From Solen grandis (lineage: Eukaryota; Mollusca; Bivalvia; Adapedonta; Solenidae), in contig CM037783.1 in the NCBI GenBank assembly GCA_021229015.1, positions 53,714,647 to 53,778,646 on the forward strand: a stretch of 64,000 nt of DNA, given 5' to 3'. The notes beneath the pieces were generated by a model, which was not told the origin of the DNA, made no database searches, and saw nothing but the letters and a program-made list of their open reading frames with translations. The position numbers and the translations under genes are program-made. This document shows, piece after piece, positions 7,891-59,562 of the stretch; the first letter of the stretch is position 1; the number at the start of each line of letters is the position of its first letter.

Positions 7891-9703
7891 AAGCAAGCAA
7901 TCACTGGACCACAGTGTCTATAGCAAGCTATCACTGGACCACAGTGTCTATAGCAAGCAATCACTGGACCACAGTGTCTATAGCAAGCTATCACTGGACC
8001 ACAGTGTCTATAGCAAGCAATCACTGGACCACAGTGTCTATAGCAAGCAATCACTGGACCATGGTGTCTATAGCAAGCTATCACTGGACCACAGTGTCTA
8101 TAGCAAGCTATCACTGGACCACAGTGTCTATGGCAAGCTATCACTGGACCACAGTGTCTATGGCAAGCTATCACTGGACCACAGTGTCTATAGCAAGCAA
8201 TCACTGGACCACAGTGTCTATCGCTAGCTATCACTGGACCACGGTGTCTATAGCTACCTATCACTGGACCACAGTGTCTATAGCAAGCAATCACTGGACC
8301 ACAGTGTCTATAGCAAGCAATCACTGGACCACAGTGTCTATAGCAAGCAATCACTGGACCACAGTGTCTAAAGCAAGCAATCACTGGACCACAGTGTCTA
8401 TAGCAAGCAATCACTGGACCACAGTGTCTATAGCAAGCAATCACTGGACAACAGTGTCTATAGCAAGCAATCACTGGACCACAGTGTCTATAGCAAGCAA
8501 TCACTGGACCACAGTGTCCAAAACACTGAAAGGTCATAAAAAATAGCAATCATCATGGACCACAGTGTCTATAGCAAGCAATCACTGGACCACAGTGTCT
8601 ATAGCAAGCAATCACTGGACCACAGTGTCTATAGCAAGCAATCACTGGACCACAGTGTCTATAGCAAGCAATCACTGGACCACAGTGTCTATAGCAAGCA
8701 ATCACTGGACCACAGTGTCTATAGCAAGCTATCACTGGACCACAGTGTCTAAAGCAAGCAATTGCTGGACCACAGTGTCTATAGCAAGAATTGGACCACA
8801 GTGTCTATAGCAAGCTATCACTGGACCACAGTGTCTAAAGCAAGCAATTGCTGGACCACAGTGTCTATAGCAAGCAATCACTGGACCACAGTGTCTATAG
8901 CAAGCAATCACTGGACCACAGTGTCTATAGCAAGCAATCACTGGACCACAGTGTCTATAGCTAGCAATCACTGGACCACAGTGTCTATAGCTGCAATCAT
9001 GTCTATAACAAGCAATCACAGGACCACAGTGTCTATAGCAATCTATCACAGGACCACAGTGTCTATAGCTAGCAATCACTGGAGCACAGTGTCTATAGCT
9101 AGCAATCACTGGACCACAGTGTCTATAGCAAGCTTTCACTGGACCACAGTGTCTATAGCAAGCAATCACTGGACCACAGTGTCTATAGCTAGCAATCACT
9201 GGACCACAGTGTCTATAGCAAGCAATCCCTGGACCACAGTGTCTATAGCTAGCAATCACTGGACAACAGTGTCTATAGCTAGCAATCACTGGGCCACAGT
9301 GTCTATAGCTAGTTATCCTGGCCACAGTGTCTATAGCAAGCAATCACTTGACCACAGTGTCTAAGCTAGCAATCACTGGGCCAAAGTGTCTATAGCTAGC
9401 AATCACTGGACCACAGTGTCTATAGCTAGCAATCACTGGACCACAGTGTCTATAGCTAGCTATCACAGGACCACAGTGTCTATAGCTAGCAATCACTGGA
9501 CCACAGTGTCTATAGCTAGCAATCACTGGACCACAGTGTCTATAGCAAGCAATCACTGGACCACAGTGTCTATAGCTAGCAATCACTGGACCACAACGTC
9601 TATAGCAAGCAATCACTGGACCACAGTGTCAATAGCTAGCAATCACTGGACCACAGTGTCTATAGCTAGCAATCACTGGACCACAGTGTCTATAGCTAGC
9701 TAT
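7891..9703. repeat. 30-bp minisatellite, about 60 units
   Basis: The unit is AGCAAGCAATCACTGGACCA followed by CAGTGTCTAT. It contains the short inverted repeat CACTG-GACCA-CAGTG. Because 30 is a multiple of three, several frames stay open on both strands (one reads as the decapeptide SIASNHWTTV). These are artefacts of the period, not genes. Units in the left half mostly carry AGCAAGC; those in the right half mostly carry AGCTAGC. A register break with unrelated sequence lies at about 8519-8555, and short or partial units occur near 8790, 9000 and 9320. Confidence 0.95.
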
Positions 9704-9879: not shown

Positions 9880-11163
9880 CTTTGGCGAGTCAATAAATAA
9901 CCAGCCTTACCTATTTCAGGTTGAGATCTACCTCTTCTTTTTCAATATAATTTCACTCCAGGGCTATGCACTTGGACCAACGGTGTTCAAGTGCCATTAG
10001 CCCAGAAGTGAAGAAGTCAGGGTCCTTTCCATGGAAACACTCCTCAATTGCCGCCACAACTTCTTTGTTAGACCAGAAATGACGTCCATGTATATCCTTT
10101 TTCAAATTTGGAAAAAGGAAGAAGTCGCTAGGAGCCAGGTCTGGTGAGTAAGCAGGGTGCGGTATTATTTCATACCCATTTCGCTCCACAGCATCCATCG
10201 CAACTTAAAAAGTGTGGACTCTTGCATTGTCCTGTTGCAGCAAAATACCTTTGGAGAGTTTACCATGGCGTTTCTCGTGGATGGCGTTCCTCAGCTGGTC
10301 TAGCAAGTTTGCATAGTATGCTCCGGTTATTGTACTTCTCTTGGGTAAAATATCCAACAAAATAACGCCCTTTGTGTCCCAAAGTACTGTGGCCATCACT
10401 TTGCCAGCAGATAGTTGAGTCTTGAACTTCTTTGGCCTTGGGGATCCCGGCCCTACGCACTGATGACTCTGGGCTTTATTTTCTGGTTCATAAAAATGCA
10501 CCCAAGTCTCATCCACAGTAACTAGACGCAAAAGGAATTCATCTTTTGACCTCAAACGCTTCAACAACGCACTGCATACTGATGCTCTCGTTGTCATTTG
10601 CTCATTGCTAAGGGATTTTGGGACCCAACAGGCTGTAAGCTTGCGCATCCCTACACGATCATGCAAGATTGTTGAAACGGTACCATGTGAAATGCCTAAT
10701 GCCTGTGTTATTTCTTCAACCTGACTTCGCATATCTGAGTATACCAGATCTCTGACTTTATTACACACTTCTTCGTCAGTGGCATCAACTGGGCGTCCAG
10801 ACCTGGCTTCATCTTCTAAAGACGTTCTACTGCATTTAAACTCCCCAACCCAGAATTTAACTTGAGAATAAGATGGTGCAGAAGACCCATACACATCAAC
10901 TAACTCAGTATGTATGTTCTTACCAGTTTTACCTTATAAATGCAAGTACCGAATTACAGCACGGTACTCCACTTTTGATGAAAAGCTTGTTTTTACAACA
11001 CTAACCATGTTTGACATTCAATATCTGACAAACAAATGACCTTATACATGTGTAGTTTTGTACACAGGTATAGTACATGTATTGAAACAATGTGTGAAAA
11101 TCGTGGATGTCTCGCTTGATCGGAGATGTCATAAGCTGGTTATTTATTGACTCACCCTCGCAC
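9880..11163 (-). mobile_element. mariner DNA transposon, full length but inactivated
   Basis: An element of about 1.28 kb is flanked by TA dinucleotides at 9878-9879 and 11164-11165, the expected mariner target duplication. Perfect 19-bp inverted repeats GAGTCAATAAATAACCAGC lie at 9887-9905 and, as the complement, at 11135-11153. The outermost few bases are less well matched. The minus strand encodes a transposase (see the pseudogene entry). The left end sits just beyond the 30-bp minisatellite. Confidence 0.9.
9953..11008 (-). pseudogene. mariner transposase with two nonsense codons
   Basis: The frame runs 352 codons from an ATG at 11008 to a stop at 9953, the normal length for mariner. It is interrupted by TAA at 10936-10934 (codon 25) and at 10207-10205 (codon 268), with no frameshift seen. 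The N-terminal helix-turn-helix region (VKFWVGEFK, then SLEDEARSGRP) and the WVP linker are present. The catalytic triad is intact: D166 in VDETW, D260 in QQDNARVH, and D295 in YSPDLAPSDF. This gives DD34D spacing. The element encodes everything needed for recognition as mariner, but it cannot make a full protein from this copy. Confidence 0.93.
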
Positions 11164-11696: not shown

Positions 11697-12003
11697 GATC
11701 ACATCTAAGTAATTTTTGTAACTTTTAGGGACTATTACATTTTGCCAGTAACTATACCTATCCAGATCAGCCTTTGAGCAACGAAGAAGGTCAAAACCTG
11801 TTAAAATTACATGTACTTTTAGTCACATCTGGTTTATATATGATCAAACATTGTGTGAACAAGTAAGACTATTGCGTAGCAATCAAAGTCCCCTACCAGA
11901 AAAGGCCTTGTCGCACTATAAAATAGAACCAAAATTCAAATACTGACTGAAATCAGCAGTCTGTTGTTAATGATACATGGAGGTATGTTTTACACAACAG
12001 ATT

Positions 12004-12245
12004 TTAACCCTTTTCCTCATACAGACTCATTTTGACGCACTCAATAGGTACCACATAAAGCCTGATCTGCAGAAAACCACAGGTAAACCTTACCAAATTT
12101 AATTACAAAATCCTCATTTCAAGACCACTGAGGAGCAGCGAACAGCATAAAACCTGATGAGCCTGCGAGTTACTCGCAGGCTGATCTGGTTTTATGTTGT
12201 TCACATAGGTCTTTTCATGGTGTCCTCTATGAGGGAAAGGGTTAA
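12004..12245 (+). mobile_element. TTAA hairpin MITE, copy 2
   Basis: TTAA flanks at 12004 and 12242, CCCTTTTCCTCAT tip, and the same central palindrome with a few substitutions (GATGAGCCTGCGAG). Same orientation as copy 1. Confidence 0.85.
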
Positions 12246-16592: not shown

Positions 16593-17799
16593 AAGTAGTC
16601 TAATTACAACTTTAAGAGTGGTCCTATAATGACCTCTTTGAATGGTCTAGTTATAGCTTGTTCTGTGGTCTATTTAGAACTCCCGGAATGATTAAGTGAG
16701 GGTTTCTGGGGTGTTCTAGTTGGATGTTTATATGGTTGGGGCCATCTGTTGTGTTCTAATTCAATCATCTGGAGTGATTTAGTGGTCTAGTTTTGTAGCA
16801 AAAACAATAGAACACTTCAAATTGAAATCTGTAAACCTCATGCAAGAAATAATTGGAATTCAAACAATATACATTAATCAAGATTAAGAAACAAATTGGA
16901 TAATACCTTAAAAAGTTAATTTCATAATAATCTGTGCTTGCTCTTTATGAATTATCTATGAAAGAGCTTGTGTTAGCATGGGTGCTGGGGCAGAAGATAT
17001 GTTTATGACTTGAGACAACAGACACAACAAGAACACCACCTGGGAAATAAGGTCCCCCATTTTGTTTATTCAGATAATTATTCCAGGAAAAAAAAAAAAA
17101 AAAACATTGATAAAATTTCTGACTCTAGGGGCTGAATTTTTACAACCAATGTTGCAGTTTATTATTGTCAAACCTCCCCTGGAAGAGACCTAGATCTGCC
17201 CGTTCATCTGCCCATTGACTAGGATGCATAATACTACAGTAAGTATGATTTCATTCAATTACAAGTTTTAATTAACTGATAATTTCCTCAGACTTTTCTA
17301 CTGAGGACACCTTTTATGTATGCTCACAATTGTACCTCAGTGGTTCCTTAATTAAAACTTAAAATGGCTGAATAAGTCAAAGACTTGGGACAAAAACTAT
17401 TCTAACTGCTTTATAATATTTTGAAATTTTGCACTACGCTCTTTAAGTGTTTATTTTTTTTTATATATTTTTAGACATTCAAATTCTAAACTTATTATAT
17501 GTCATTTTAGCAACTTATTGTGCTGATATTTCAATTCCTTAATCAACTATATCTACAAGCATTTCATTAATTACTAAACAATAAGCACATCCCTTAAGAT
17601 GGCCAAAACAATTTCATGCTCTATCTACTTGCAAACAGCAGACAATACTGTTATTTTTTATTTCAATTGTCTAACATGGCCTTGATTGGTAATCTGATTG
17701 GATGGCGAAGCAGTTACTGCAATCATGATCTATAATAAAAGAGTCAAGTATTAGTAAGCTTTATTAATAAAGACAAATGCTACTGAGGTTAACACTTAC
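16593..17799. other. Probable intron next to the KIAA0513-like exon
   Basis: A decayed tail of the 24-bp array, then AT-rich DNA. It lies downstream of a strong 5' splice site on the minus strand at 17799, so at least the right part should be intronic. Confidence 0.5.
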
Positions 17800-18965
17800 T
17801 TGGTTTTGAAGATCTTGCCTACAAACAATTTCATGAAACTCATGCATTCCAAGGTCAAATCATCTGGTTGGCTATCCAAACTGTAATTAGAACTCCAAGA
17901 CCTTTCAGAGCCAATGGAATCCAGCCTTCTTTTATGTTCATCCTCGTATTCCGGTTCAGACGACTCTACACTGGTCTGATTATTCAAACTACTCTCATGT
18001 ATATCCACTTCAGATGACTCCACGCTACTAACACTTGGATATTTTTCACCTGATTTTTCATTATCCTCGGAACTTTTCAAGTTTCTGCGATTGACAATAG
18101 GTTTTGGGTGGAAGTCCTCTAACTCTGGCTCATCGAAAGAAATGAGATCGCCCATTGGAAGAAGAGTTTTTCTTTTATTAAAAACATTATCATCCTCTGC
18201 CTGAACTTCCGGTTCAAGCTCAGCCTGATAATCATCAAACAGCATTTCATCTACTGTGCTTGATCTACGCTTCGTGGTAGCAAGACTGGGTGCTCGCGTT
18301 CTTTCTTCTCCTGTATTTCTTTCACTGTGCACATATCTCTCTGAATCACTAGAATGTCCACTTGAAATTCGCGGAGAATTTGTTGAACTGCGTGAGCTTC
18401 TTCGTCCGGTTCTGTTAGGGTTATACGGAGGAGGTGGAATGGTTGGTGGGGTGGCACGGTCTTTTGCCCTTGGTCCAGGTCCCACACTTGAAGACCTTTT
18501 TTCTGGAGTAGCGACTTTTGTCGGTGAATATATGGGCTCATCAAAGCTCATGTTGACTCCACTTTTGACAAATTTCTCCTCATTAATACTTCCATTGCTA
18601 CTTGACCCACTGCCATGGCGCTTCATTTGTGATCTCTCCCCCAAGCTATTTCTACTATCATTTGTTTTTGACACTAATTTTTCCTCACTGTTTTCCTTAT
18701 TCACCATAGCTTTCTCTTCAGACATTGGAGGTGTGGTCTTCGTTTCACTGGTGTACTCTTCATCTGAATACCTGGCCGGGGAGCTGTCAGAATCTCCAAG
18801 GCTGCTCCCACTTGGACTACTTTTCATCATTGCTCCAACACTCTCAATTTTATTTGTCAAGTCATTCATTAACCCATTCTTTTTGGCCATCATTGAGCTG
18901 AAGAAACGGGACGTTCCCTCGGAGAAGCTATCCCCGCCTGAAGAAAGTTTTCTCCGAAAATCCAT
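17800..18965 (-). CDS. KIAA0513-like protein, first coding exon
   Basis: The exon encodes 388 codons plus two bases. The ATG at 18965 is preceded by an in-frame TAA four codons upstream, which fixes the start. The exon ends at 17800 in front of a strong donor (CAA|GTAAGT). The protein is highly polar and probably disordered. It has an N-terminal, possibly amphipathic stretch (residues 20-48, FFSSMMAKKNGLMNDL), many Ser-Pro sites, a PPPY motif near 178-181 and acidic blocks. The segment GDLISFDEPE at 272-281 and the last 30 residues (SWSSNYSLDSQPDDL, then FMKLFVGKIF) resemble the region of human KIAA0513 that precedes its conserved domain. That assignment comes from remembered similarity. Human KIAA0513 is a cytoplasmic protein of uncertain role. 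Later exons were not located. Confidence 0.6.
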
Positions 18966-19066
18966 ACTGATGTCTTACCCAGTTTTTCCGCTGAATTTAC
19001 GACAGATTCAACAATTGATTATTTTGTAGTCAGTTTCCCATTCCATCTCTCACATAGCGGAAATTC
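18966..19066 (-). other. Probable 5' UTR of the KIAA0513-like exon
   Basis: On the minus strand, a pyrimidine-rich CACTTGCTTCAG acceptor ends at 19067, and the following bases run without an ATG in frame to the start codon. This would make the exon 19066-17800, with further 5' UTR exon(s) upstream. Inference from the splice pattern only. Confidence 0.35.
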
Positions 19067-20055: not shown

Positions 20056-20683
20056 TTGATGGTGTAATTAATGAAATCAAAATAGTATAGGGTTAATTTC
20101 ATTTTATCCCACTTTAATTAGTGCCAAAAGGCTTCTGTCTACTTACTGATATTTAAAACAACTAATAAGTATTCTATTATAAAGCCTGTTTTGTTTGTGA
20201 ATTTTCCAATGGTCAGACAATTTCAGTGATAAAACAACATCCAGCTAATCACAGGTGAAGAAAGACAAAGTTCACCAAGGCCTCCAGATAAAACCACCAA
20301 CCTAGTGCAATCCAGCCATGCCAGGGCTTCCACAAGTGGAAACTCCCGAGTGACCAGACTGGAACTGCAACCAACAGTGGTGGGGGTAACTTACAAATGG
20401 ATCTGGCCCCAAGTTCTTAAAGATAATGAAAAACATACTCAAACTATGAAAGTTTGATACATGAGCCATGTTCACAATATCTTTTAAGCACAATCTCAGC
20501 TAAGTCAAATTTCATACTCAATTATGTTTGAGGCAGTGTTTGAAAACATTCCATATTTAATACTCAAAATAAGGCTTCAGCATGATTTTTGAGAGATTTT
20601 TGTTTTGAGAACACTGCTTTCATATCATTCAACCATTTTCTGAGGCTTAACCTCAAATGATTGAGCATATACCTGAGTATGCC

Positions 20684-20925
20684 TTAACCCTTTCCCTCAT
20701 AGAGGAAACCATGAAAAGACCTATGCGAACAACATAAAACCAGATCAGCCTGCGAATAACTCGAAGGCTGATCAGGTTTTATGCTGTTCGCTGCTCCTCA
20801 GTGGTCTGGAAATGAGGATTTTGTAATTAAATTTGGTAAGGTTTAATTGTGGTTTTCTGCAGATCAGGCTTTATGAGATACCCATAGAGTGCGTCAAAAT
20901 GAGTCTATATGAGGGAAAGGGTTAA
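20684..20925 (-). mobile_element. TTAA hairpin MITE, copy 3
   Basis: TTAA at both ends (20684 and 20922) and the same tips and central palindrome. It is inverted relative to copy 1. One arm has AATAACTCGAAGG, so the stem is slightly degraded. Confidence 0.85.
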
Positions 20926-23989: not shown

Positions 23990-24300
23990 AGTAATTATAC
24001 TGAAAAATTAAGTATATTATCTCTAAGCTGAAATCCTTTTTTACAATAAATTGCTAATTTAGTTAATAATTCTTTGTTTTCAGTGCTCAGAAGTTCCAAA
24101 AATTTAGACATATTTGGTCTGTTTGAATAATACTTGGGTAGATACTTTGATCGTAATTATGTATAAAATGGACAAATAATAAGAAAATGAAATTCATCTT
24201 CTATATCATTTCTATTACATAAATTGCACTTCCTGTCATGTCTTGATATGGCGAGAATATCAGCCTTGAATATCACTATTGAGAAGGTCTGATACTGTAT
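23990..24300 (-). pseudogene. LINE C-terminal Cys-His tail
   Basis: Conceptual translation contains CNLCNRNDIEDEFHFL followed by ICPFY, then LLTKLAIYCKKGF. The C-x2-C...H...C spacing is typical of the tail after the reverse transcriptase in many LINE ORF2 proteins. At least one in-frame stop follows ICPFYT. It continues the same element as the reverse transcriptase fragment on the other side of MITE copy 4. Confidence 0.7.
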
Positions 24301-24543
24301 TTAACCCTTTCCCTCATAGAGGATACCATGGAAAAGACCTATGCGAACAGCATAAAACCAGATCAGCCTGCGAGTAACTCGCAGGCTGATCAGGTTTTAT
24401 GCTGTTCGCTGCTCCTCAGTGGTCTGGTAATGAGGATTTTACATTTAAATTTGGTAAGGTTTGAGTTTGACTTTCTGCAGATCAGACTTTATGTGGTACC
24501 TATTGAGTGCGTCAAAATGAGTATATATGAGGGAAAGGGTTAA
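24301..24543 (-). mobile_element. TTAA hairpin MITE, copy 4 (in LINE)
   Basis: TTAA at 24301 and 24540, intact tips and a near-perfect palindrome. It belongs with copies 10 and 11 to a subfamily with GGTAATGAGGATTTTACA and GAGTTTGACTTTCTGC in place of the common GGAAATGAGG/GGTTTTCTGC. It sits exactly where the LINE reverse transcriptase breaks off. Confidence 0.88.
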
Positions 24544-24960
24544 GTGTTTAACTGTAAGTCTAACTTCGTTGTACATAGCTCTAACAACCAACAACAGTTT
24601 TCACCAATCCCATTTTGTAGCAGCTTAAACCACAACGAATTTCTGTCAATGTAGTTGTAGGCTTTGCGAAAATCACCCATGCATGTATACAACTTTTCCT
24701 TCTTACGTATTTGTCTTTCTATCAATGAATTAAACACAAAAATACAGTCAACTGTACTGCTGTTCTGTTTAAAACTGAACTGTGAGTCTTGAATAACCCG
24801 ACTGCTGGTTGACCATTTCTTAAGCCTTTCTTTCACTATGACTGTAAAAAGCTTACAAAAACAAATACCAGTAGTAATTATAATGCCACGGTAATTATTG
24901 GGATTTGAAGTATCACCTTTTTATACAGTGGCTTTATGATGCCAATTGACCAGCTTTGTG
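24544..24960 (-). pseudogene. LINE reverse transcriptase fragment
   Basis: The translation includes KERLKKWSTSSRVIQDSQFS, FKQNSSTVDCIFVFNSLIE and YTCMGDFRKAYNYIDR. These match the early motifs of LINE reverse transcriptases (the QFGF, KK and FVDFRKAFD-like blocks, with substitutions). The frame ends at MITE copy 4. The polymerase active-site motif is not present. Confidence 0.8.
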
Positions 24961-25449: not shown

Positions 25450-25895
25450 AGGATTCAAAAACTCATTAAAATTATGCACAGTGAAATCTGTTCAAGTATC
25501 AAAATTACTGCGGTTGGTCAATGAGTAGTCCACGACACTTTGACAATTTTATGTTGTGCATGTAGATACCCATTTACTATTTTTACCCTTGAGGATTAAC
25601 ATATATCGAGGAGATGGTCTCCAAACCTATTGCTAATTGAGTCCTGTGAAACACGTACTAACGGTGTGTCTGTGTCAATGATGTCATCGTGACCTATATT
25701 ACCGTCATGTGGTATATGATCAACTTTCTGTGCAGTACGTGAATCCATTACCACCCACAACAAACACCTACATCTTCATAAATACCTCTACCTCTAATTC
25801 TCTAAAAATATTGGTGTCCATTAAATTATGAAAAAGAGAATTTTCAGGAGCAATATATGCAAAACCATCATATTTCCAAAAACCTATATCAAGCT
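25450..25895 (-). pseudogene. LINE endonuclease, second part
   Basis: Conceptual translation gives a block with VRVSQDSISNRFGDHLLDIC followed by IVNGYL. This is the conserved region of LINE AP endonucleases after the GDFN motif. Another piece, GFWKYDGFAYIAPENSLF, precedes it in a different frame. Frameshifts and stops are present. Confidence 0.6.
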
Positions 25896-26137
25896 TTAAC
25901 CCTTTCCCTCATAGAGGAAACCATGAAAAGACCTATGCGAACAGCATAAAACCAGATCAGCCTGCGAGTAACTCGCAGGCTGATCAGGTTTTATGCTGTT
26001 CGCTGCTCCTCAGTGGTCTGGAAATGATGATTTTATAATGAAATTTGATAAGGTTTATCTGTGGTTTTCTGCAGATCAGGCTTTATGTGGTACCTATTGA
26101 GTGCGTCAAAATGAGTCTATATGAGGGAAAGGGTTAA
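25896..26137 (-). mobile_element. TTAA hairpin MITE, copy 5 (in LINE)
   Basis: TTAA at 25896 and 26134, intact tips and palindrome. It splits the LINE endonuclease region, which continues on both sides, so it inserted after the LINE. Confidence 0.88.
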
Positions 26138-27121: not shown

Positions 27122-27787
27122 GCATCCAATTATTAAATTTGCTGACTAAAATGTTTATTTCTAAAATTACTTATTCAAGATTGAATAACACCGGATTTGC
27201 TTAAATATCACTGGAGTAATATCAGTTACACTTCATTGTAATTACTTTTGGATGAACAATACCGAATCGTCAAGTGTTACTTTGATGTCACTTTATTTCT
27301 AATCTGCCTGGTAAATGTCGCACTGTGTATATGTGACTACAAATCTAATGTATGAAGGTTTGAAACCCACTGGAGGTGCGAATTTTTCTAGATTATACAA
27401 CCCAGGAACTTGTTTTTCAATTGACATAAAAGATAAAAGTTTAAATGACCATACAGGAAACTTATCAGCCATGAAAAAGATCAGATACTAAGTATGATGC
27501 GTGATAATTTCACTATTGTTAACATTTTTTTATCTTTCACAAAAAAAAAAAATTTGAAAAAAAAAAATGATGCCACCAACTTTACTGTAAACTATCCTAC
27601 AGTATTTATTGATAAGATAAACAAAGCACAAAATGTCTCTTTTCTGATCATTGTTTTTCCCATCCAATAGAATGATCAGAAATAAAGAGGCTGAAATAAA
27701 TGTCAGTCTAATACATTCAGCTCTTGTATGACATCACCAATATCCCTCAAAAGAAGTAGTGTTCCTCCTACGCGAAATACAGATTAC

Positions 27788-28027
27788 TTAACCCTTTCCC
27801 TCATACAGACTCATTTTGACGCACTCAATAGGTACCACATAAAGCCTAATCTGCTGAAAACCAGTTAAACCTTACCAAATTTAATTATAAAGTCCTCATT
27901 TCCAGACCACTGAGGAGCAGCGAACAGCATAAAACCTGATCAGCCTGCGAGTTACTCGCAGGCTGATCTGGTTTTATGCTGTTCGCAAAGGTCTTTTCAT
28001 GGTTTCCTCTATGAGGGAAAGGGTTAA
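27788..28027 (+). mobile_element. TTAA hairpin MITE, copy 6
   Basis: TTAA at 27788 and 28024, with tips and a near-perfect central palindrome. A small deletion lies in the left arm region (GAAAACCAGTTAAACC). Confidence 0.88.
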
Positions 28028-48300: not shown

Positions 48301-51111
48301 AGTTTTTGCCTGGGGGCAACACATGAAAACCTGGTTTTGCATCATTTTTTTATTTTTTTTTGTAAGCAGATCAAGTTTTATTGTAGTTGCAAAGATGCAT
48401 CTTGGAATAATGGTTATCAGGTAAAGGTGCAAGGTCCTCTTCTACATTATGCAACAACCTAGCTACAGCTAAAGATAAAGTTTAAAGTTCATATATCTAA
48501 ACAAGATATACCTTTGGATAAACTGAAATATTTTAGTGTCAAAACATTTATTTCTCCCCCAGCATTTCCCAATGTATCGTGAGTCCGATGCTAATTGCTC
48601 AACACCTGATGCAGTGCCAGAGGAGGAGAAAGACGTCATATTCAGGGAGAAAATGGACTGTCTGTCTCAGGAAAGCTCAAAACTTGTAAGTGTCTGAAAA
48701 TTGACTGTCTGTCTCAGGAAAGCTCAAAACTTGTAAGTGTCTTGTCTATGGTTTTGATCTAAACATTTGCTAGGATAGTGTCTGCATATCATTGCAAGTA
48801 TCTTTTTGTGGTCTCAAAAATGTTCAGTCGTATAACCCTTTCCCTTATATAGACTCATTTTGACGCACTCAATAGGTACAACATAAAGCCTGATCTGCAG
48901 AAAACCACAGTTAAACCTTACCAAATTTAATTACAAAATCCTCATTTCCAGACCACTGAGGAGCAGCAAACAGCATAAAACCTGATCAGCTTGCGAGTTA
49001 CTCGCAGGCTGATCTGGTTTTATGTTGTTCGCATAGGTCTTTTCATGGTTTCCTCTATGAGGGAAAGGGATAACTCCCTTGCTGGGCACTCAGCATATAA
49101 GGGTAGTTTCAGGACTGGTTGGCCAGATGTCAGAATAATGTGACTGGGTGTGGTATTATGCCACAAGTCTATGATATGATACTGCAGTGTGGCAGTACTT
49201 TATCTGTCTTAAGTGGACATTGTCTTTAAATGACTGAAATGACTGAAATGCTGTCGGTGAGGCATTAATCCCAATTAACATACAGACATTTTTATTGAGA
49301 TTTACTTAATTCTTTACCTCATGAATAGTCATTGTAAATATATGATCTGATGAATATTAATTTAAAGAACTTAAATGGTATATGAAACAAGGATTTTTCT
49401 GCTGTGAAGGCTGAATACTGGTAAGAATCCATGCTAGAATATTGTATGAGCAAACAGAGAAGACCCTGATCAGACATCTCCTGGAAGGATCTGTCACAGA
49501 TCTGATTCTACTCTCTTTGTCAATGCATCAAAATTAGTCTGTATGAGGTAAAATGAGGTAAAGGTAAATTATTTAAATTTGTTTGTGTGTGTGTGTGTGT
49601 TTTTTTAATAAAATGACATGTGAACTCAATACTTAATTATCACTTCTATTGATTTTCATCATGTTTTTGTTAGCCTTTTTTATTGATATTGTACTGAATT
49701 TAGGGGCTGTTGTAAGAATATACACTTCTAACAAAAAAAATGTTGCCATATACAAATTCAGTAAAAGTATGTTAACATTTGGGATGGGATTAAAACAGGG
49801 AACAAAAGCTGTAAAGGAAATGGGTCCTGAAAATAATTGTGTCATTAATAAGGTAATTCTTATTCAAAGGTGATCTTTACATGAGGTTTGATTGTACATC
49901 CTCTGTACACGTGCATGTTTTGTTTACATCCTATGTACACGTGCATGTGTTGTTTACTCAGCTATTTGAGTGGCTGGATCCCCGCCTCATCATCAGTGCC
50001 NNNNNNNNNNNNNNNNNNNNNNNNNNNNNNNNNNNNNNNNNNNNNNNNNNNNNNNNNNNNNNNNNNNNNNNNNNNNNNNNNNNNNNNNNNNNNNNNNNNN
50101 CACACACACCACGGCTGTTACAGGGTCCATGATAACAAGGCACCAGAGTACACAGTGGCTTCCTACAACTGGAGGAATAAACAAACACCTACATTTCTGC
50201 TGGTAAGCTATCATTGTTACTCTCATGAATATTCCTTCATGCCATGATCCACTGTGTAGATTCATTCCAAATGATGTTACACTTTCATCCCTGTGTGGGT
50301 GGGGAGGGTATGACTCCCGCTGTCCGTCGTCAAATGCAACAAATTTATGAAACTGGTGTAAGATTTTCTGCTTTGTGAATGTGCTTTGCACAAATGAATA
50401 TGCTGCAGAATTCCCATTCATGAAGGAGAAATCTGTTACTATTGTCATTTGTCATTTAACCCTTTCCCTCATAGAGGAAACCATGAAAAGACCTATGCGA
50501 ACAGCATAAAACCAGATCAGCCTGCGAGTAACTCGCAGGCTGATCAGGTTTTATGCTGTTCGCTGCTCCTCAGTGGTCTGGAAATGAGGATTTTGTAATT
50601 AAATTTGGTAAGGTTTAACTGTGGTTTTCTGCAGATCAGGCTTTATGTGGTACCTATAGAGTGCGTCAAAATGAGTCTATATGAGGGAAAGGGTTAACAT
50701 AATGTACTACAGTATACGGTTGGTTTTTTGTCTACACTGTATATTAAATTAATGGAAAGCACATGCTGTTGGCAGATATATCTGGAGAGCATGCCACTGT
50801 AATCAGTATGTATTAACTTTTCACCTATTTATTACATATTTTGAAGGAATTCTCAAAAGTACTACATCTATGAAATTCTCTATTCTGATTATGAGAACTT
50901 AATCGATCTTTATTTTTTTTTTCCCCTGTTACAGGCAGAAATTACAGGTCAAGATTTTGTGATCAACCGGTGCTATCTACCCAATGAGAAGACTGTGATC
51001 AGTATATATATTACCGGGGCCTTCATCATCGTCATCTGTATATTTCTCCCCAACAAAAAATTTAAGAGGATTTCTAGCAAAGAAATCATTTTCACAAATA
51101 AATCCAACTAG
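39247..51111 (+). CDS. MPPE1: MPPE1/PGAP5 metallophosphoesterase, nine-exon gene
   Basis: The coding exons I place are 39247-39305, 40626-40850, 42274-42344, 45070-45211, 45881-46067, 46956-47036, 48563-48685, 49962-50202 (with a 100-N gap) and 50935-51111. All junctions are GT-AG and in phase. The product is about 401 residues; human MPPE1 is 396. Visible parts are an N-terminal membrane segment (about 33-55), metal-site motifs GDTH (78-81), GD (119-120), GNHD (157-160), a late HFP histidine (256) and the HTHHG motif in exon 8, then a C-terminal membrane segment. In vertebrates the enzyme uses Mn2+ at ER exit sites/ERGIC. There it removes the ethanolamine phosphate from the second mannose of GPI anchors, allowing ER exit. 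The first exon is the least certain. Confidence 0.93.
40290..40485 (+). mobile_element. tRNA-derived SINE in MPPE1 intron 1
   Basis: The head GTCCGGTCCAGTGGAAGG resembles an A box and GGTCCTGGGTTCAAGTTT a B box, about 35 bp apart as in tRNA heads. A body with CCAGGTGTTAATGGGTGCCTG follows, then a long T-run. This is the layout of a tRNA-head SINE. Family name not assigned. Confidence 0.6.
40626..40850 (+). CDS. MPPE1: MPPE1 exon 2: membrane anchor and GDTH motif
   Basis: Acceptor CTTTACTTTCAG ends at 40625; donor ACG|GTAATA follows 40850. It encodes the membrane segment ([20 protein letters not shown]) and the first metal motif, [11 protein letters not shown], then HWFDKLRR. These match the order and wording of human MPPE1 (LLFCEFLIYYL, ADTHLLG, HWLDKLRR). 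Confidence 0.93.
41591..41944. repeat. Direct repeat flanking a short tandem array (intron 2)
   Basis: A 70-bp block containing CAGATATTGATCTAATATTT and GGTATGTGAGTCTA occurs at about 41597-41663 and again at about 41875-41944. Between them lie about five copies of a 30-bp unit (CAGTTTCCCGGACTTTTTTC). Confidence 0.8.
42274..42344 (+). CDS. MPPE1: MPPE1 exon 3: FVLGD strand
   Basis: Acceptor TTTTTTTTACAG ends at 42273; donor TTAG|GTAATG follows 42344. It encodes [20 protein letters not shown] then FVL and the first base of Gly. This aligns with human [25 protein letters not shown]. The GD of the second metal motif spans the junction with exon 4. Confidence 0.93.
42745..44068 (+). mobile_element. 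Non-autonomous element with tandem core and end hairpin (intron 3)
   Basis: It begins near CTTTTGTCCGGCGTCCATGC. Six diverged units of about 165-170 bp follow (CACAAGGCCTAGAGTTTAGA, TATTTGGTGTGTA, then CCTTGGGTCA and CCCCGCCC). It ends GGTGAGTGATTCAGGGCCAT plus CATGGCCCTCTTGTTT. The end palindrome AGGGCCATCATGGCCCT and the tail match the elements at 61534-63541. The architecture recalls bivalve pearl / Helentron-associated elements; that label is inference. The 5' terminal hairpin seen in the other copies is absent, so this copy is probably truncated. Confidence 0.6.
44760..45069. repeat. Degenerate tandem repeat abutting the exon 4 acceptor
   Basis: About six units of roughly 50 bp share TGATTTCTGACCCCATG and TAGAATATTTC blocks. 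The last unit (TTTTTTTGATATCTGACACC) forms the polypyrimidine tract and acceptor AG of MPPE1 exon 4. Confidence 0.75.
45070..45211 (+). CDS. MPPE1: MPPE1 exon 4: GD and GNHD motifs
   Basis: Acceptor TGACACCAG ends at 45069; donor TATAT|GTATGT follows 45211. It encodes [22 protein letters not shown], and [14 protein letters not shown]. This aligns with human GDIFDEGK and VVAGNHDIGFHYEM. GD supplies the bridging Asp and GNHD the Asn/His pair of the binuclear metal site. Confidence 0.95.
45881..46067 (+). CDS. MPPE1: MPPE1 exon 5
   Basis: Acceptor TGATATTACAG ends at 45880; donor CCAAG|GTAATA follows 46067. It encodes [31 protein letters not shown] and a cysteine near the end (LKCAK). Human MPPE1 has VERFEKVF, FVMVNSVALNGDGCGIC and RLNCSRE in the same order. 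The DGC.IC cysteines are conserved. Confidence 0.95.
46100..46480. repeat. Possible interspersed repeat (intron 5)
   Basis: C-rich and T-rich blocks (GCATTCCCCCCTGCC, TTTTTCCCCCTCC, ATGGGCCCGGACCCCTTTACC) stand out from the AT-rich background. This looks like a degraded insertion, but no ends or family can be assigned. Confidence 0.3.
46956..47036 (+). CDS. MPPE1: MPPE1 exon 6
   Basis: Acceptor AATCATTTCAG ends at 46955; donor CTGCAG|GTGAGG follows 47036. It has 27 codons, [17 protein letters not shown] then VYSRPVLLQ, in phase 0 on both sides. SRPVLLQ corresponds to human SAPVLLQ just before the HYPLYR histidine. The segment before it is variable in the family. Confidence 0.92.
47390..47790 (+). 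repeat. Interspersed repeat with two core units (intron 6)
   Basis: It starts with a TCGGTCGG.CTGTCTGTC run. Two units of about 145 bp follow (ACACTTGGGCTCACATTCC, TCAAACTTCA, TAGATGACCCCTATTGATTT, GGTCAAGGTCACAGTGA). The end is GGGGGCATATGTGTTATTCC. It resembles repeats common in bivalve introns. Confidence 0.65.
48563..48685 (+). CDS. MPPE1: MPPE1 exon 7
   Basis: Acceptor TTTCTCCCCCAG ends at 48562; donor AAACTT|GTAAGT follows 48685. It has 41 codons: [37 protein letters not shown] and SSKL. Human HYPLYRRSDANC and FKENYDVLSREASQKLL align throughout. The opening His is a predicted metal ligand. The exon end and its donor are duplicated just downstream. Confidence 0.95.
48655..48740 (+). repeat. 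Tandem duplication of exon 7 end plus 5' splice site
   Basis: TGACTGTCTGTCTCAGGAAA...CTTGTAAGTGTCT occurs at about 48657-48695 (first base differs) and again at about 48702-48740. The second copy carries an identical donor, CTT|GTAAGT. Reading through the first donor meets TGA after five codons. Confidence 0.92.
48832..49073 (+). mobile_element. Hairpin MITE, copy 8, flanked by ATAA (intron 7)
   Basis: Same family, orientation and palindrome as copy 1, but the flanking tetranucleotide is ATAA on both sides (48832-48835 and 49070-49073) instead of TTAA. The matching flanks suggest insertion at a non-standard target. Confidence 0.85.
49080..49310 (+). mobile_element. SINE-like body and tail, copy 2 (intron 7)
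   Basis: CTGGGCACTCAGCATATAAG, GAATAATGTGACTGGGTGT and GAGGCATTAATCCCAATTAACATAC align in order with 11290-11490. The tRNA-like head is missing, because the segment begins just after the MITE. Confidence 0.5.
49897..49956. repeat. 30-bp tandem duplication before the exon 8 acceptor
   Basis: Two 30-bp copies (CATCC.TGTACACGTGCATG plus T.TTGTTTA) differ at two positions. The last T-rich part forms the polypyrimidine tract of the exon 8 acceptor at 49957-49961. Confidence 0.9.
49962..50202 (+). CDS. MPPE1: MPPE1 exon 8: GHTH motif, broken by assembly gap
   Basis: Acceptor TTTACTCAG ends at 49961. [13 protein letters not shown] runs up to the gap at 50001. After the gap, [20 protein letters not shown] then [14 protein letters not shown] continues to donor CTGCTG|GTAAGC after 50202. 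Human WWLQPRLVLSGHTHSACEV and PSFSWRNRNNPSF align across the gap with essentially no missing residues. The 100 Ns therefore replace about one codon, or hide an intron or assembly artefact. The two sides are in different frames if the Ns are counted literally, confirming an arbitrary gap length. Confidence 0.9.
50001..50100. other. Assembly gap of 100 N
   Basis: Exactly 100 Ns, a conventional placeholder. The right flank begins with CACACACACC, part of the HTHH codons. A short CA run may have disturbed assembly here. Confidence 0.98.
50456..50697 (-). mobile_element. TTAA hairpin MITE, copy 9 (intron 8)
   Basis: TTAA at 50456 and 50694, intact tips, and a 67-nt palindrome with a single internal A-A mismatch. 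It is the best-preserved reverse-orientation copy. Confidence 0.9.
50935..51111 (+). CDS. MPPE1: MPPE1 exon 9: C-terminal membrane segment and stop
   Basis: Acceptor CCCCTGTTACAG ends at 50934; TAG stop at 51109-51111. It encodes [16 protein letters not shown], the membrane segment ([16 protein letters not shown]), a basic stretch KKFKR and the end IIFTNKSN. Human MPPE1 has DYTLSKCYLPRED followed by a membrane helix and a basic tail. The terminal residues do not form a KKXX signal. Confidence 0.94.
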   Translation, partial: AEITGQDFVINRCYLPNEKTVISIYITGAFIIVICIFLPNKKFKRISSKEIIFTNKSN

Positions 51112-51452: not shown

Positions 51453-52012
51453 AATATAAATATTTTTTATGTAAATAATGAATAATGAAATGATCATACA
51501 AATTATGTATTTCCTAAGACAACAAATGTTAAAAAACATGTGAACTTATAAAAAAATCAACAAATGTATGACTGATTTCATGCCTTTATTTCTGATTTTT
51601 TTTTTCTACTTTGAGTAAAAATATCTCCCTTCAGTGGAGATAATAATATTATTTTTACTGTTGAAGATAAGATTTCTCTCCAGAAAGTATTTGTTAGTTA
51701 TGAACATGACCAGTAAACACAATTCATTGAGTTGAGGGAGGCCTTGGAGACTGATTTTTCATTTCTTATTGGCAAAAGTCTGGATGTTTCAGAGATATGT
51801 TCCCTTGGGTATGGCTGTGATGTTTTAGATAATGGTGCGAACTATTGTCAAGAGATAGTGGTATGTGTAATAATTTAATGTTGAGACTTATAGCCAGTGT
51901 GAATGTACTCACCAATCATAATCTTAAAAGGTTGGTCTCGTTTATGTTGTTGTAACATTGTTTTAGACTTTACGGTTGCTGAATCTGTGTTTTTATCATA
52001 TTGTCCAGCTGT

Positions 52013-52252
52013 TTATCCCTTTCCCTCATAGAGGACACCATGAAAAGACCTATGCGAACAGCATAAAACCAGATCAGCCTGCGAGTAACTTGCTGGCTGA
52101 TCAGGTTTTATGCTGTTCGCTGCTCCTCAGTGGTCTGGTAATGAGGATTTTACATTAAATTTGGTAAGGTTTGAGTTGGCATTCTGCAGATCAGGCTTTA
52201 TGTGGTACCTATTGAGTGCGTCAAAATGAGTCTATATGAGGGAAAGAGTTAA
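52013..52252 (-). mobile_element. TTAA hairpin MITE, copy 10
   Basis: The left flank is TTAT and the right is TTAA, with one substitution in the right tip (GGGAAAGAGTTAA). It shares the subfamily marks of copies 4 and 11. The palindrome has two changes (CTTGCTGGCTGATC). Confidence 0.85.
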
Positions 52253-52445: not shown

Positions 52446-52956
52446 TTTGGTATGTGATATCTAAATTCATATTTTTAAGTATATACCTATCTATTTGGTA
52501 CATTTAGCTAAAGATATGCATTGCATATTTACCAGTGTCTACTATGAAAATAAAATGTTGGCACGCTTAATCATCCAGCATGACCATCAGTCTCATTAAA
52601 GACAATCAACACTTATCTCAAGCCACAGTCATTATCTCCACACATTTGACACTTTGTTTATAGAACACAACCAAATTTTACAGTTAAGAACCAGATTGTT
52701 TAAGGCACCTTATTGTATTGTCACAGTGTCATAAAAATTAAAACACAAGCATATGTGCTCTTTGGCAAATATTTTTGGTTTCATTAATAGCTTAAACATG
52801 ATAGGGAAATGAGGCATTTGAATAGCAAGATGGTCATAATTGTGGGACATGAAACCAATCTGGCCATTCAATTTCCACTTTAAATTATTTAGTTCCAAAA
52901 ATTTGTAGCCGGGTACAGGTATTTGGTGATAAATCAATAGGCAATAAGACATGAGT

Positions 52957-53028
52957 GTCTCGATAGCTCAGTGGTAGAGCGCAGGAACAGTAGTCCTGAG
53001 GCCCTGGGTTCGAGTCCCGGTTGGGCCA
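52957..53028 (+). tRNA. tRNA-like gene in left LTR (Thr-type AGT anticodon position)
   Basis: 72 nt. A box TAGCTCAGTGG and B box GGTTCGAGTCC are canonical. The D stem GCTC/GAGC and anticodon stem CAGGA/TCCTG are perfect; the T stem CTGGG/CCCGG has one wobble. The loop ACAGTAG puts AGT at the anticodon, but position 33 is C, not T. The acceptor GTCTCGA/TTGGGCC pairs at six of seven positions, two of them wobbles. TTTTTT follows at 53032. Because it is inside a transposon LTR, it is unlikely to be a working host tRNA. Confidence 0.7.
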
Positions 53029-53031
53029 TGA

Positions 53032-53037
53032 TTTTTT
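53032..53037 (+). terminator. T6 Pol III terminator in left LTR
   Basis: TTTTTT three bases after the tRNA-like gene, the expected place for RNA polymerase III termination. The same run occurs in the right LTR at 53302-53307. Confidence 0.65.
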
Positions 53038-53053
53038 CACCACCTGTTACATT

Positions 53054-53066
53054 TGGCGCCCAACGT
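53054..53066 (+). promoter_or_regulatory. Primer binding site, tRNA-Lys type
   Basis: TGGCGCCCAACGT is complementary to the 3' end, with CCA, of animal tRNA-Lys(CUU) (ACGTTGGGCGCCA, from memory). Placement two bases after the LTR is normal. Confidence 0.8.
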
Positions 53067-53160
53067 AAATAACCTACTGTTTGAAATGACTACTGCTTCG
53101 GCACCTCAAGAACTTTTCACAATGTTCTTTGTCTCAAAGAATTCGGGACGAATTCTAAAT

Positions 53161-53174
53161 TTGGAGGGGGAATA
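53161..53174 (+). promoter_or_regulatory. Polypurine tract
   Basis: TTGGAGGGGGAATA directly precedes the right LTR. This is the standard site for plus-strand priming in LTR elements. Confidence 0.8.
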
Positions 53175-53321
53175 TGTAGCCGGGTACAGGTATTTGGTGG
53201 TAATCAAAAGGCAATAAGACATGAGTGTCTCGATAGCTCAGTGGTAGAGCGCAGGAATGGTAGTCCTGAGGCCCTGGGTTCGAGTCCCGGTCGATCCATG
53301 ATTTTTTCACCACCTGTTACA
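53175..53321 (+). repeat. Right LTR of the TRIM-like element
   Basis: 147 bp, matching the left LTR except for changes near position 25-35, at the anticodon loop and in the 3' acceptor strand of the tRNA-like gene. Confidence 0.88.
53227..53298 (+). tRNA. tRNA-like gene in right LTR (Thr-type GGT anticodon position)
   Basis: Same A box, B box and stems as the left copy. The loop ATGGTAG has the usual T33 and puts GGT at the anticodon. The 3' acceptor strand is TCGATCC, so only five of seven acceptor pairs form with GTCTCGA. T6 follows at 53302. Probably a transposon-borne Pol III unit rather than a host gene. Confidence 0.65.
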
Positions 53322-56190
53322 AATTAGTGGTCTTAATAGCAAGGTGGCCTTAATCCAAAGTGGTATTAAAGCAAGGTTTTACTGTATTGCTTATTTTCTT
53401 GTGCATGATGTATATCTAAGGAGATATATGTTTGTCTATGATTTGCTGTATCTTGTGATTAGTGGACAAAGCAACAACTCTAACAGTGACTGGACAGTAA
53501 TTTTGTAATGGATCCCTCATTTTCTGCCTATTTTCTGGACTGAACTTTGTTAAAAATCAATCATTTAAGATACCTAATATATTGGTGAATGAGGGTGCCA
53601 GCTTAATTGGCCTAAAATGGAGTTCACTGACATAGCAAGTATTTGATTAATTTTTGTCATGCCCATACTTGTAGCACTTGAATATCAGCTCTTCATTGTC
53701 CTGACTCAAATATGTTTCCCAAAGGTCAAGGTCATAGGCAGGCCTATGCACAGTTATGAATAAAACTGCTAAAAAATGCCATGAAAAATTGTACTGCGTA
53801 TATTTAAGTGCAATTTATTTGTGTAATTCTCAAGATAATATAATGTGATTTTACTGATAAAAGTTATGTTGTACATGTATTTTTTTGTTTCCTTGATTTT
53901 TTTAGTAGTTTAATCATAGTAGATTTGACAGTTTTTGTCCATACCTTGTTTTGCTTTATTAACTTAACTCTTAATTGTTTGTTCTATATTTAAGTTGTAC
54001 ATTAAATGCTTACCGTTTTGACTAAACACAATAAAAATAATGTTAAACAAACATTAAAACCTTGAAATACCTTGGGGGGATTTTTGTTTGTTTGAATAAT
54101 TGTTTGTTATAAGTTTCCTTATATACATGTTTTGTGTTTGAAACATCATTTTCGGGAATATTTAAATCTGTTAATAATATAATTAAGTATTAATTGTAAT
54201 GTAGTAAGGAACAATAGTGGTTGTCCTAAAAAAACTTGTTGTTTGGATGATAATTTATACTTTTATTTTTTTAAGAAGAAAATTAAACTCTGCCTTGCAT
54301 ATGTTTTTGAATGCTGGATGAAATTTTCTTGACTCTGTTATTTAACCTGGATATTGTTAATTGATTAATATCCAAGTGATTATTGCATCCCTCTTGGTTG
54401 ACAAGTCTTGAATGTCTGAGTTCTCCATTACATAAGCCAGCAATGGCTACTTACAGTCTGACTCTCATGAGAATCGTGGCCGTCAAAGGTGTTCACTGTG
54501 AAAAGGTAACGGAAATAGAAGTTTTGATTAGGCCTGGCATATTGTTAGTCATGCAAATAACAAAATTATTACTTTCTGCAAATATAGTTTACCATCATAC
54601 TAGCAGCATTCCAGGTGAGTTTAAAAGATCAAATTATGAGGTTCTAATTAAATGCACTGGCGCATATGTTTTCAAAAGGAGAACGTTGGAACCTTTCACT
54701 TGTTTTGAAAATTAGAGGTGTTTGGATAAAACTAATTGGTGGATCAGGGTTCTACTGTATACAAGGTGCATATGTTTCATGTAGTATTTAAATACAAAAT
54801 TAAGTTTGTGCTTAGAAATATCCATTCATGCATGGTAAGCTTAAATATACTGAGCAGTATTTCAAGGTCTTTAAAATTTTAGAAACATTATATGTAGAAC
54901 ATAATATTCTATCAAGATAATGTAACAACCAGTTCAGTATGGAGCATGCATTAATTGTTAATGGAAAAAATCAGACTTAACCATGCATTGTTTCTGGTGC
55001 TGATGTTATGTTTTGTTACTATTCTCTTAGCAACAGAGCTGTGTAATGCACCAACTAATTAAATCATTACTCTTGTTTATAAGATGATAGCAACTTTTAG
55101 TCATCTTCAGTTTTTAAGTAAAGACATTTCCAAATAAGTTTTCATAAAAACAGGAGTACGAACTGGATTCAGGATTACCTTGTTAAAACTGTGTTTGATT
55201 TGAAACAGGATATGCTGCTTAGTTATCTTTAAATAACAGTTATGCTATATATTGCTGATAATGCTATAAGATCGGATGCACTTGTTTTTCTCAGGTATAT
55301 TGTATTCAATTAATTTACTTTGGATAATCTCTAATAGCTGAGGCATTTAGAAAACAATTTGTCCTATTATGAATATCAATATTCATAAAATTGAATTGTA
55401 GCTCAAACTTTCTGATGAGTTTAATTTAACAGGTAGGTTATTTTACATAAATACTCAAGAAAAACATTAAAAATAACCCCAATATCCAGTGGAAGGTCCT
55501 GTAAGGCTTAATGTTGGGGATACATGGGATTTCATTTGAATGCATTCATTAACAAAATAGAATATTCATTATCATCAGTATGTGTACAGAATAAATCTGA
55601 ATTAACATGCAGTAACATAATAATGATGTCCATAATTTATGAACCTTCTAAGGTTTCAAATGCAATATAATAGTGCTCATTTTGTACGCTAGAACATTTT
55701 CTTAGTTTTATATTTGTGGATCAAGAATGTTTTGTAATTTTGTATTTTACATACTTTTTTAATTATTTTTACTAGATTGTGTTCTATAATATTTGTCACA
55801 TAACCAGCATCTGAAGCACACAGGAACAAGCCTTAATTGTTTTCAGCATGTGACTATACCAGTAGTCTTATACAGTTTAGACTGTCTTTAATAAGCCTTC
55901 ACATGCCTAATTTTTTTTCCATTTGTCAGGTTTTCCAATTAAAAACAACTGAATTAAATATTTATCTTCCTTATATAACAAATGACCATAAAAGTCAAAG
56001 TTTGATTGGGGTTACTATGTTTTTAATGACTTTGAAATGGCTGCTCTCATGTTTTTGCATCTTAGAGTTACTATTCTTAATCACTTAGTGAACAGATCAA
56101 TTTATAAGAAAGGCAGTTCTTATCTGCAGTAGGTGAACATCCCAAATAATGAGAAATAAAGGCGGATGATGTTGGTTATGTGTTAGATAG
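53322..56190. other. No recognisable gene
   Basis: About 2.9 kb of AT-rich DNA. A 110-codon frame at 54383-54715 has no domain, no splice context and unremarkable composition. Confidence 0.45.
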
Positions 56191-59320: not shown

Positions 59321-59562
59321 TTAACCCTTTCCCTCATATAGACTCATTTTGACGCACTCAATAGGTACCACATAAAGCCTGATCTGCAGAAAGCCAAACT
59401 CAAACCTTACCAAATTTAATTGTAAAATCCTCATTACCAGACCACTGAGGAGCAGCGAACAGCATAAAACCTGATCAGCCTGCGAGTTACTCGCAGGCTG
59501 ATCTGGTTTTATGCTGTTCGCATAGGTCTTTTCATGGTATCCTCTATGAGGGAATGGGTTAA
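59321..59562 (+). mobile_element. TTAA hairpin MITE, copy 11
   Basis: TTAA at 59321 and 59559, perfect central palindrome except for the constant mismatch. One substitution in the right tip (GGGAATGGGTTAA). It carries the subfamily marks of copies 4 and 10 (ATTACCAGACCACTGAGG). Confidence 0.9.

Follow-up and report, generated by a model that had tools for sequence, protein, structure and literature searches.

A Helenus-type TRIM with tRNA-like segments in both LTRs, dispersed in the genome of the clam Solen grandis

Within a 64-kb stretch of DNA from the clam Solen grandis (the whole of which is here called the window), two direct repeats, each containing what resembles a tRNA gene, enclose a short interior. 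An earlier note on this DNA had read the locus as a terminal-repeat retrotransposon in miniature (TRIM) with a Pol III gene in each LTR, comparable to the plant element Cassandra, and had named ordinary tandem duplication of a tRNA gene as the competing explanation. The locus raises the questions of what kind of element this is, whether the kind is already known, and what a tRNA-like gene might do inside an LTR.

The element is a non-coding LTR retroelement of 418 bp on the forward strand (window 52904-53321), overlapped by no open reading frame of at least 100 aa. Its 5′ LTR (148 nt, 52904-53051) and 3′ LTR (147 nt, 53175-53321) have the ends TGTAGC...GTTACA, which recur in the family copies described below, and differ from each other at eight places, seven of them substitutions and one a gap. 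The interior of 123 nt (53052-53174) runs from TTTGGCGCCCAACGT to GGAGGGGGAATA and includes a primer-binding site, TGGCGCCCAACGT (53054-53066), which we take to be of the tRNA-Lys type, and a polypurine tract, GGAGGGGGAA (53163-53172), each at its proper place inside the LTRs. AATT both precedes (52900-52903) and follows (53322-53325) the element as a 4-bp target-site duplication, a match with a chance of about 0.6% given the local composition. These marks, from the TG...CA ends to the duplication, had all been proposed in the earlier note, and they stand.

Each LTR contains a tRNA-like segment of 74 nt, followed by a run of six T residues (T6). That of the 5′ LTR lies at 52956-53029 (Thr AGT in ARAGORN; 48.9 bits against Rfam RF00005), with an A box, TAGCTCAGTGG, at 52964-52974 and a B box, GGTTCGAGTCC, at 53007-53017; the T6, which resembles a Pol III terminator, occupies 53032-53037 and would form the 3′ limit of R. 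The sequence upstream of the tRNA-like start (52904-52955) would then be U3-like and the last 14 nt (53038-53051) U5-like. The corresponding features of the 3′ LTR are the tRNA-like segment at 53226-53299 (Thr GGT; 54.3 bits), the A box at 53234-53244, the B box at 53277-53287 and the T6 at 53302-53307. ARAGORN, Rfam and the motif positions agree on this arrangement, which is as first described. Over the whole window ARAGORN calls two tRNAs, exactly the LTR segments, and Rfam, in which the tRNA gathering score is 29 bits, finds the same two (48.9 and 54.3 bits) and nothing else in the window above gathering score. The B-box pattern GGTTCGANTCC likewise occurs twice in the window, both strands counted, and both occurrences are within the element's LTRs.

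Copies of the element were sought in its own genome (1,324,486,009 bases in 811 contigs). The full element as query gave 43 rows, 41 of them near full length, from the best 40 scored of 1377 first-look candidates, while querying with only the interior yielded 40 rows, from the best 40 scored of 426; unscored candidates are not counted as confirmed copies. Together these amount to at least 63 distinct interiors on 21 contigs (the 41 near full length and 22 further). The ends of the window copy and its LTR-interior-LTR order are shared by others, and the tRNA-like segment recurs in copies well beyond the one locus. The family of tRNA-bearing LTR elements is dispersed and young, and the window copy is one of its members. 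An exact 4-bp duplication flanks 23 of the 30 loci taken from the full-element query (window copy included), and the two LTRs are identical at 21 of the 30; with the window copy left out, a single commonest sequence accounts for 36 of 58 LTRs. These 30 loci are the best matches to the window copy, and the sample leans toward young copies. The window copy is itself older than many of the rest, its LTRs departing from the commonest sequence at three and five places, none shared between them.

Among the 30 loci from the interior query, nine were repeats (L031, L032, L034, L035, L043, L051, L053, L056 and L058). Seven of the new ones show both LTRs to both ends, five with a 4-bp duplication, and in the other 14 an LTR is missing, cut or foreign, or the locus is rearranged. 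Duplications are found, in all, at 28 of the 37 two-LTR copies tested, and the nine copies lacking one include the tandem or rearranged loci L003, L017, L018, L025 and L028. The 23 duplicated targets from the full-element query lean to a weak palindrome, with A at the second duplicated base in 19, T two bases before the duplicated stretch in 17 and A two bases after it in 19.

For the same 23 loci the flanks were fused, keeping one duplication, and searched against DNA fetched from the same genome. Junction-spanning matches were obtained for six (L005, L008, L009, L026, L027 and L030), all of which represent paralogous DNA and not a second allele. The cleanest is at L030, where the joined flanks align without gaps over 115 nt, at about 90% identity, to uninterrupted satellite units, which resemble an empty site of the kind that the earlier note had called for; L009, a TA microsatellite, carries little weight.

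Several copies are rearranged. L003, L025 and L028 have an extra interior, whole or partial, at the start; tandem arrays have also been mentioned for LTR-11_DR (PMC10886601). L018 and L059 have inverted neighbours. At L050 (1354-1764, minus strand) an LTR of a second family (97.9% identity) is followed by an interior and LTR of the first, without a 4-bp duplication, and recombination between copies is likely here, since two different complete LTRs would not be expected from one normal cycle of reverse transcription. At L018 (1918-2090) an inverted LTR of the family is followed by CTTGGCGCCCAACGTGGGACAAA, a Lys-type primer site longer than that of family 1, which is possibly a trace of an autonomous partner or of another family.

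The second family is represented by an element at L017 (1924-2320, minus strand), with 141-nt LTRs that differ at one place and an interior of 115 nt. The first 22 nt of this interior are those of family 1; the LTRs are different, with TATAAAA at LTR position 12, and the element lacks matching 4-bp flanks. Its LTR segment receives no tRNA call from ARAGORN, nor from Rfam at E up to 0.1; only its A and B boxes identify it. Probably there is also a third family, seen at L004, where a 142-nt LTR (2290-2431) has a tRNA match of 31.3 bits and a T7, and is followed by TTTGGTGCCCTCACAG, which resembles a primer site unlike that of family 1. Within L004 2290-2573 there is a second LTR-like copy with a tRNA-like segment, diverged and incomplete (72% over 102 nt).

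All three families share one LTR plan: the A and B boxes are 43-44 nt apart, a T-run (four or more residues) follows the B box at a distance of 15-18 nt, and between this run and the LTR end there remain 11-14 nt, the putative U5. We infer that R begins where the tRNA-like segment does and reaches to the T-run, and see in the shared plan the strongest hint at a mechanism. Uneven conservation among the parts of the LTR, with fewer changes in the tRNA-like part and U5, had been considered as well and was dropped, as most of the single differences came from one row that was out of register (L017, 147-nt LTR).

Elements of this type are already in print. Helenus, described by Kojima in 2024, comprises TRIMs with tRNA-derived sequences in their LTRs, of which 51 families are reported from five pteriomorphian orders (PMC10886601). 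Those of bivalves have tRNA-Thr-like LTRs and include tRNA-Lys among their primer sites; animal Helenus elements make 4-bp duplications, their mobilisation by Gypsy has been inferred from the primer sites, and Pol III transcription is expected, though unproven (PMC10886601). The window element is short and without coding capacity, with two LTRs that both hold a tRNA-like sequence with A and B boxes, a primer-binding site and polypurine tract just inside the LTRs, and a 4-bp duplication in the window copy (AATT) as in 28 of the 37 copies. Set against the main-text description of Helenus, these features support placing the family within that kind and not in a new one. The main text of PMC10886601 contains no discussion of T-runs or of the limits of R.

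The comparison with Cassandra put forward in the earlier note is one that Kojima also makes for Helenus, and it holds insofar as both are non-coding TRIMs with a Pol III small-RNA gene in the LTR (PMC10886601). Cassandra differs in being a plant element based on 5S rRNA, with reported transcription ends where those of the clam element are inferred (PMC10886601); no 5S rRNA-derived segment occurs in the clam element, in which Rfam shows tRNA only. Ajax, a nemertean TRIM of about 420-434 bp, also has a Pol III promoter in its LTR, but this is 5S-derived, and Ajax has 5-bp duplications and a tRNA-Leu primer (PMC10886601). Bivalves, including heterodonts, also harbour biv-TRIM (Satovic 2019), which, in the portions of that paper available, is described as having no canonical primer-binding site identifiable and as showing tRNA similarity in the inner domain, without mention of a tRNA-like LTR (PMC6934838). 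tRNA-derived SINEs share a tRNA-derived Pol III promoter but have no LTRs, primer-binding site or polypurine tract, and are copied by LINE machinery (PMC10886601); the clam element, with its LTR-interior-LTR order, primer-binding site and polypurine tract, does not fit a SINE, which would have no LTRs and a LINE-type tail. Exact patterns of the element gave no matches in viral_contigs or in genome_contigs, two collections without animal genomes.

The position of the host gives the family its interest. A KIAA0513-like reading frame in the window (17799-18974, minus strand), the one sizeable gene-like frame searched that has homologues in animals, has 81 homologous proteins, the best named matches being to Mercenaria (59%) and Ruditapes (61%), with scallops at 37%. 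A tree was built from the window sequence and 25 of the 81 homologues, 26 rows in all. In it the window sequence pairs with another sequence (100/99) within a group that includes Mercenaria, Ruditapes, Dreissena and Mya (100/98), apart from oysters, scallops, mussels and the ark clam. NCBI taxonomy assigns Mercenaria and Dreissena to Imparidentia, and Mizuhopecten to Pteriomorphia. Judged by this one gene, the host is an imparidentian (heterodont) clam, whereas the bivalves in Table 1 of the Helenus paper are all pteriomorphian (PMC10886601). The words Heterodonta, Venerida and Ruditapes are absent from its main text, which is silent on whether heterodont genomes were searched. Searches of the CC-licensed PMC literature, including the parts available of PMC12859917, PMC8905726 and PMC10294476, brought up no report of Helenus in heterodonts; in what is available of the first of these, a 2026 meeting report, Helenus receives one sentence. 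The host range of Helenus is therefore probably extended to a heterodont clam. Bivalve Helenus has been dated to the common ancestor of Pteriomorphia, more than 470 million years ago (PMC10886601), and its occurrence beyond the listed bivalve lineage means that either its age or its mode of spread must be rethought.

What the tRNA-like segment does can be approached by weighing the readings that the locus permits. Very probably the window element is a Helenus-type TRIM (TRIMp3 in Kojima's terminology), a non-autonomous LTR retrotransposon in whose LTRs the usual Pol II promoter has given way to an internal Pol III promoter derived from a tRNA. That a tRNA gene was duplicated in tandem as a segment and looks LTR-like by chance has nothing in its favour but the two direct repeats. 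At least 63 dispersed interiors in the same order refute such a duplication, as do the 4-bp duplications at 28 of 37 copies and a rightly placed primer site and purine tract, and we give it practically no credence. It is unlikely, though less remotely so, that Pol II transcribes the element from U3, as in an ordinary TRIM, and that the tRNA gene or SINE head is a passenger in the LTR. The TATAAAA at position 12 of the family 2 LTR could serve Pol II in that case; an upstream TATA element can also serve Pol III, and two or three families with different LTRs have kept the A box, the B box, their spacing and the T-run, all of which argues against a passenger. The surroundings of the boxes are, moreover, conserved across Helenus (PMC10886601).

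The segment might also be a working tRNA-Thr gene, the family spreading functional tRNA genes as it moves. ARAGORN does call Thr, the common copies score 55.2 bits in Rfam and are read as Thr GGT, and seven bivalve Helenus families could encode tRNA-Thr (PMC10886601). Nevertheless, the Rfam alignment places a C at anticodon-loop position 33 of the common copies, and their second acceptor pair is mismatched. U at tRNA position 33 is nearly universal and, to our knowledge, the anticodon GGT for Thr is usually absent in animals; in addition, some copies are called as Ser, as AGT or without an anticodon (L020, L026 and L017). A working tRNA is on these grounds highly improbable, and a promoter role for the segment is far more likely, in line with Kojima (PMC10886601). 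Whatever their role, such LTR copies will inflate the counts of tRNA genes in clam genomes.

If the tRNA-like segment is indeed the promoter, the life cycle of a Helenus-type element can be sketched from its sequence. Pol III would initiate at or just upstream of the tRNA-like segment of the 5′ LTR. Since the T6 in that LTR should end Pol III transcription short of the interior, full-length RNA would need read-through: a fraction of transcripts would pass the first T6, cross the interior and terminate at the second, in the 3′ LTR. The RNA would then have the order R (tRNA-like segment to T6), U5 (14 nt), primer-binding site, interior, polypurine tract, U3 and R. Minus-strand DNA would be primed by host tRNA-Lys, strand transfer would proceed via the 80-nt R, and the polypurine tract would prime the plus strand. 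For copying and integration the element would depend on an autonomous LTR element that supplies reverse transcriptase and integrase, probably Gypsy, to judge from the 4-bp duplication and the primer site.

That one Pol III gene per LTR, the tRNA-like gene and its terminator together forming R, sets both ends of the genomic RNA is a tentative proposal, to which we give slightly less credence than doubt. If this reading of R is true, the 5′ copy would yield short tRNA-like RNAs, the genomic RNA would be the read-through product, and the 80-nt R would be the bridge for strand transfer. The same plan in two, probably three, families of a heterodont genome and in pteriomorphians would mean either an old, stable design predating the split of the lineages, or horizontal spread. 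The near-identical young copies make transcription testable, and with it the question of whether a tRNA gene can be promoter, terminator and R at once. Genomic cyclisation through base pairing between U5 and the beginning of U3 was also considered and set aside, the pairing energy being reached by 281 of 5000 U3 shuffles, 749 of 5000 U5 shuffles and 8 of 1627 window 14-mers of like GC, which was judged not significant.

One Gypsy element was examined as a possible autonomous partner. At L040 (1624-3123, with its extension L061) and L028 (with L062), Helenus copies are fused to or lie inside this element, and the joints are short shared stretches. At L040 the Helenus LTR and the first 15 nt of the interior run into Gypsy pol, judged by eye to be close to where RNase H ends, and then into integrase. 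The integrase domains of the Gypsy element are H2C2 and rve. Its LTRs, about 599 nt long, give no tRNA call, and the 5′ one is followed by TTGGTGGCCAGTG, a primer site of another type. As its LTR is unlike that of Helenus and its primer site is different, it was ruled out as the partner.

The remainder of the window contains further repeats. One of about 242 bp occurs in ten places (291-533, 12002-12245, 20681-20925, 24300-24543, 25893-26137, 27779-28027, 48833-49073, 50455-50697, 52012-52252 and 59322-59562); five have TTAA at both ends and inverted ends of the CCCTTTCCCTCATAGA type, as in piggyBac-like MITEs, and in the other five a simple search for the ends failed to delimit the repeat on both sides. 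The stretch at about 50000-50104 is unread, appearing as X in translations. Also present are a reverse transcriptase fragment (24543-24920, minus strand) with RVT_1 at the cut-off score, a 30-bp tandem repeat of about 61 copies (7892-9696) that is open in several frames, and a mariner-like transposase frame of 242 aa (10205-10933, minus strand; Pfam Transposase_1, E 9.4e-23).
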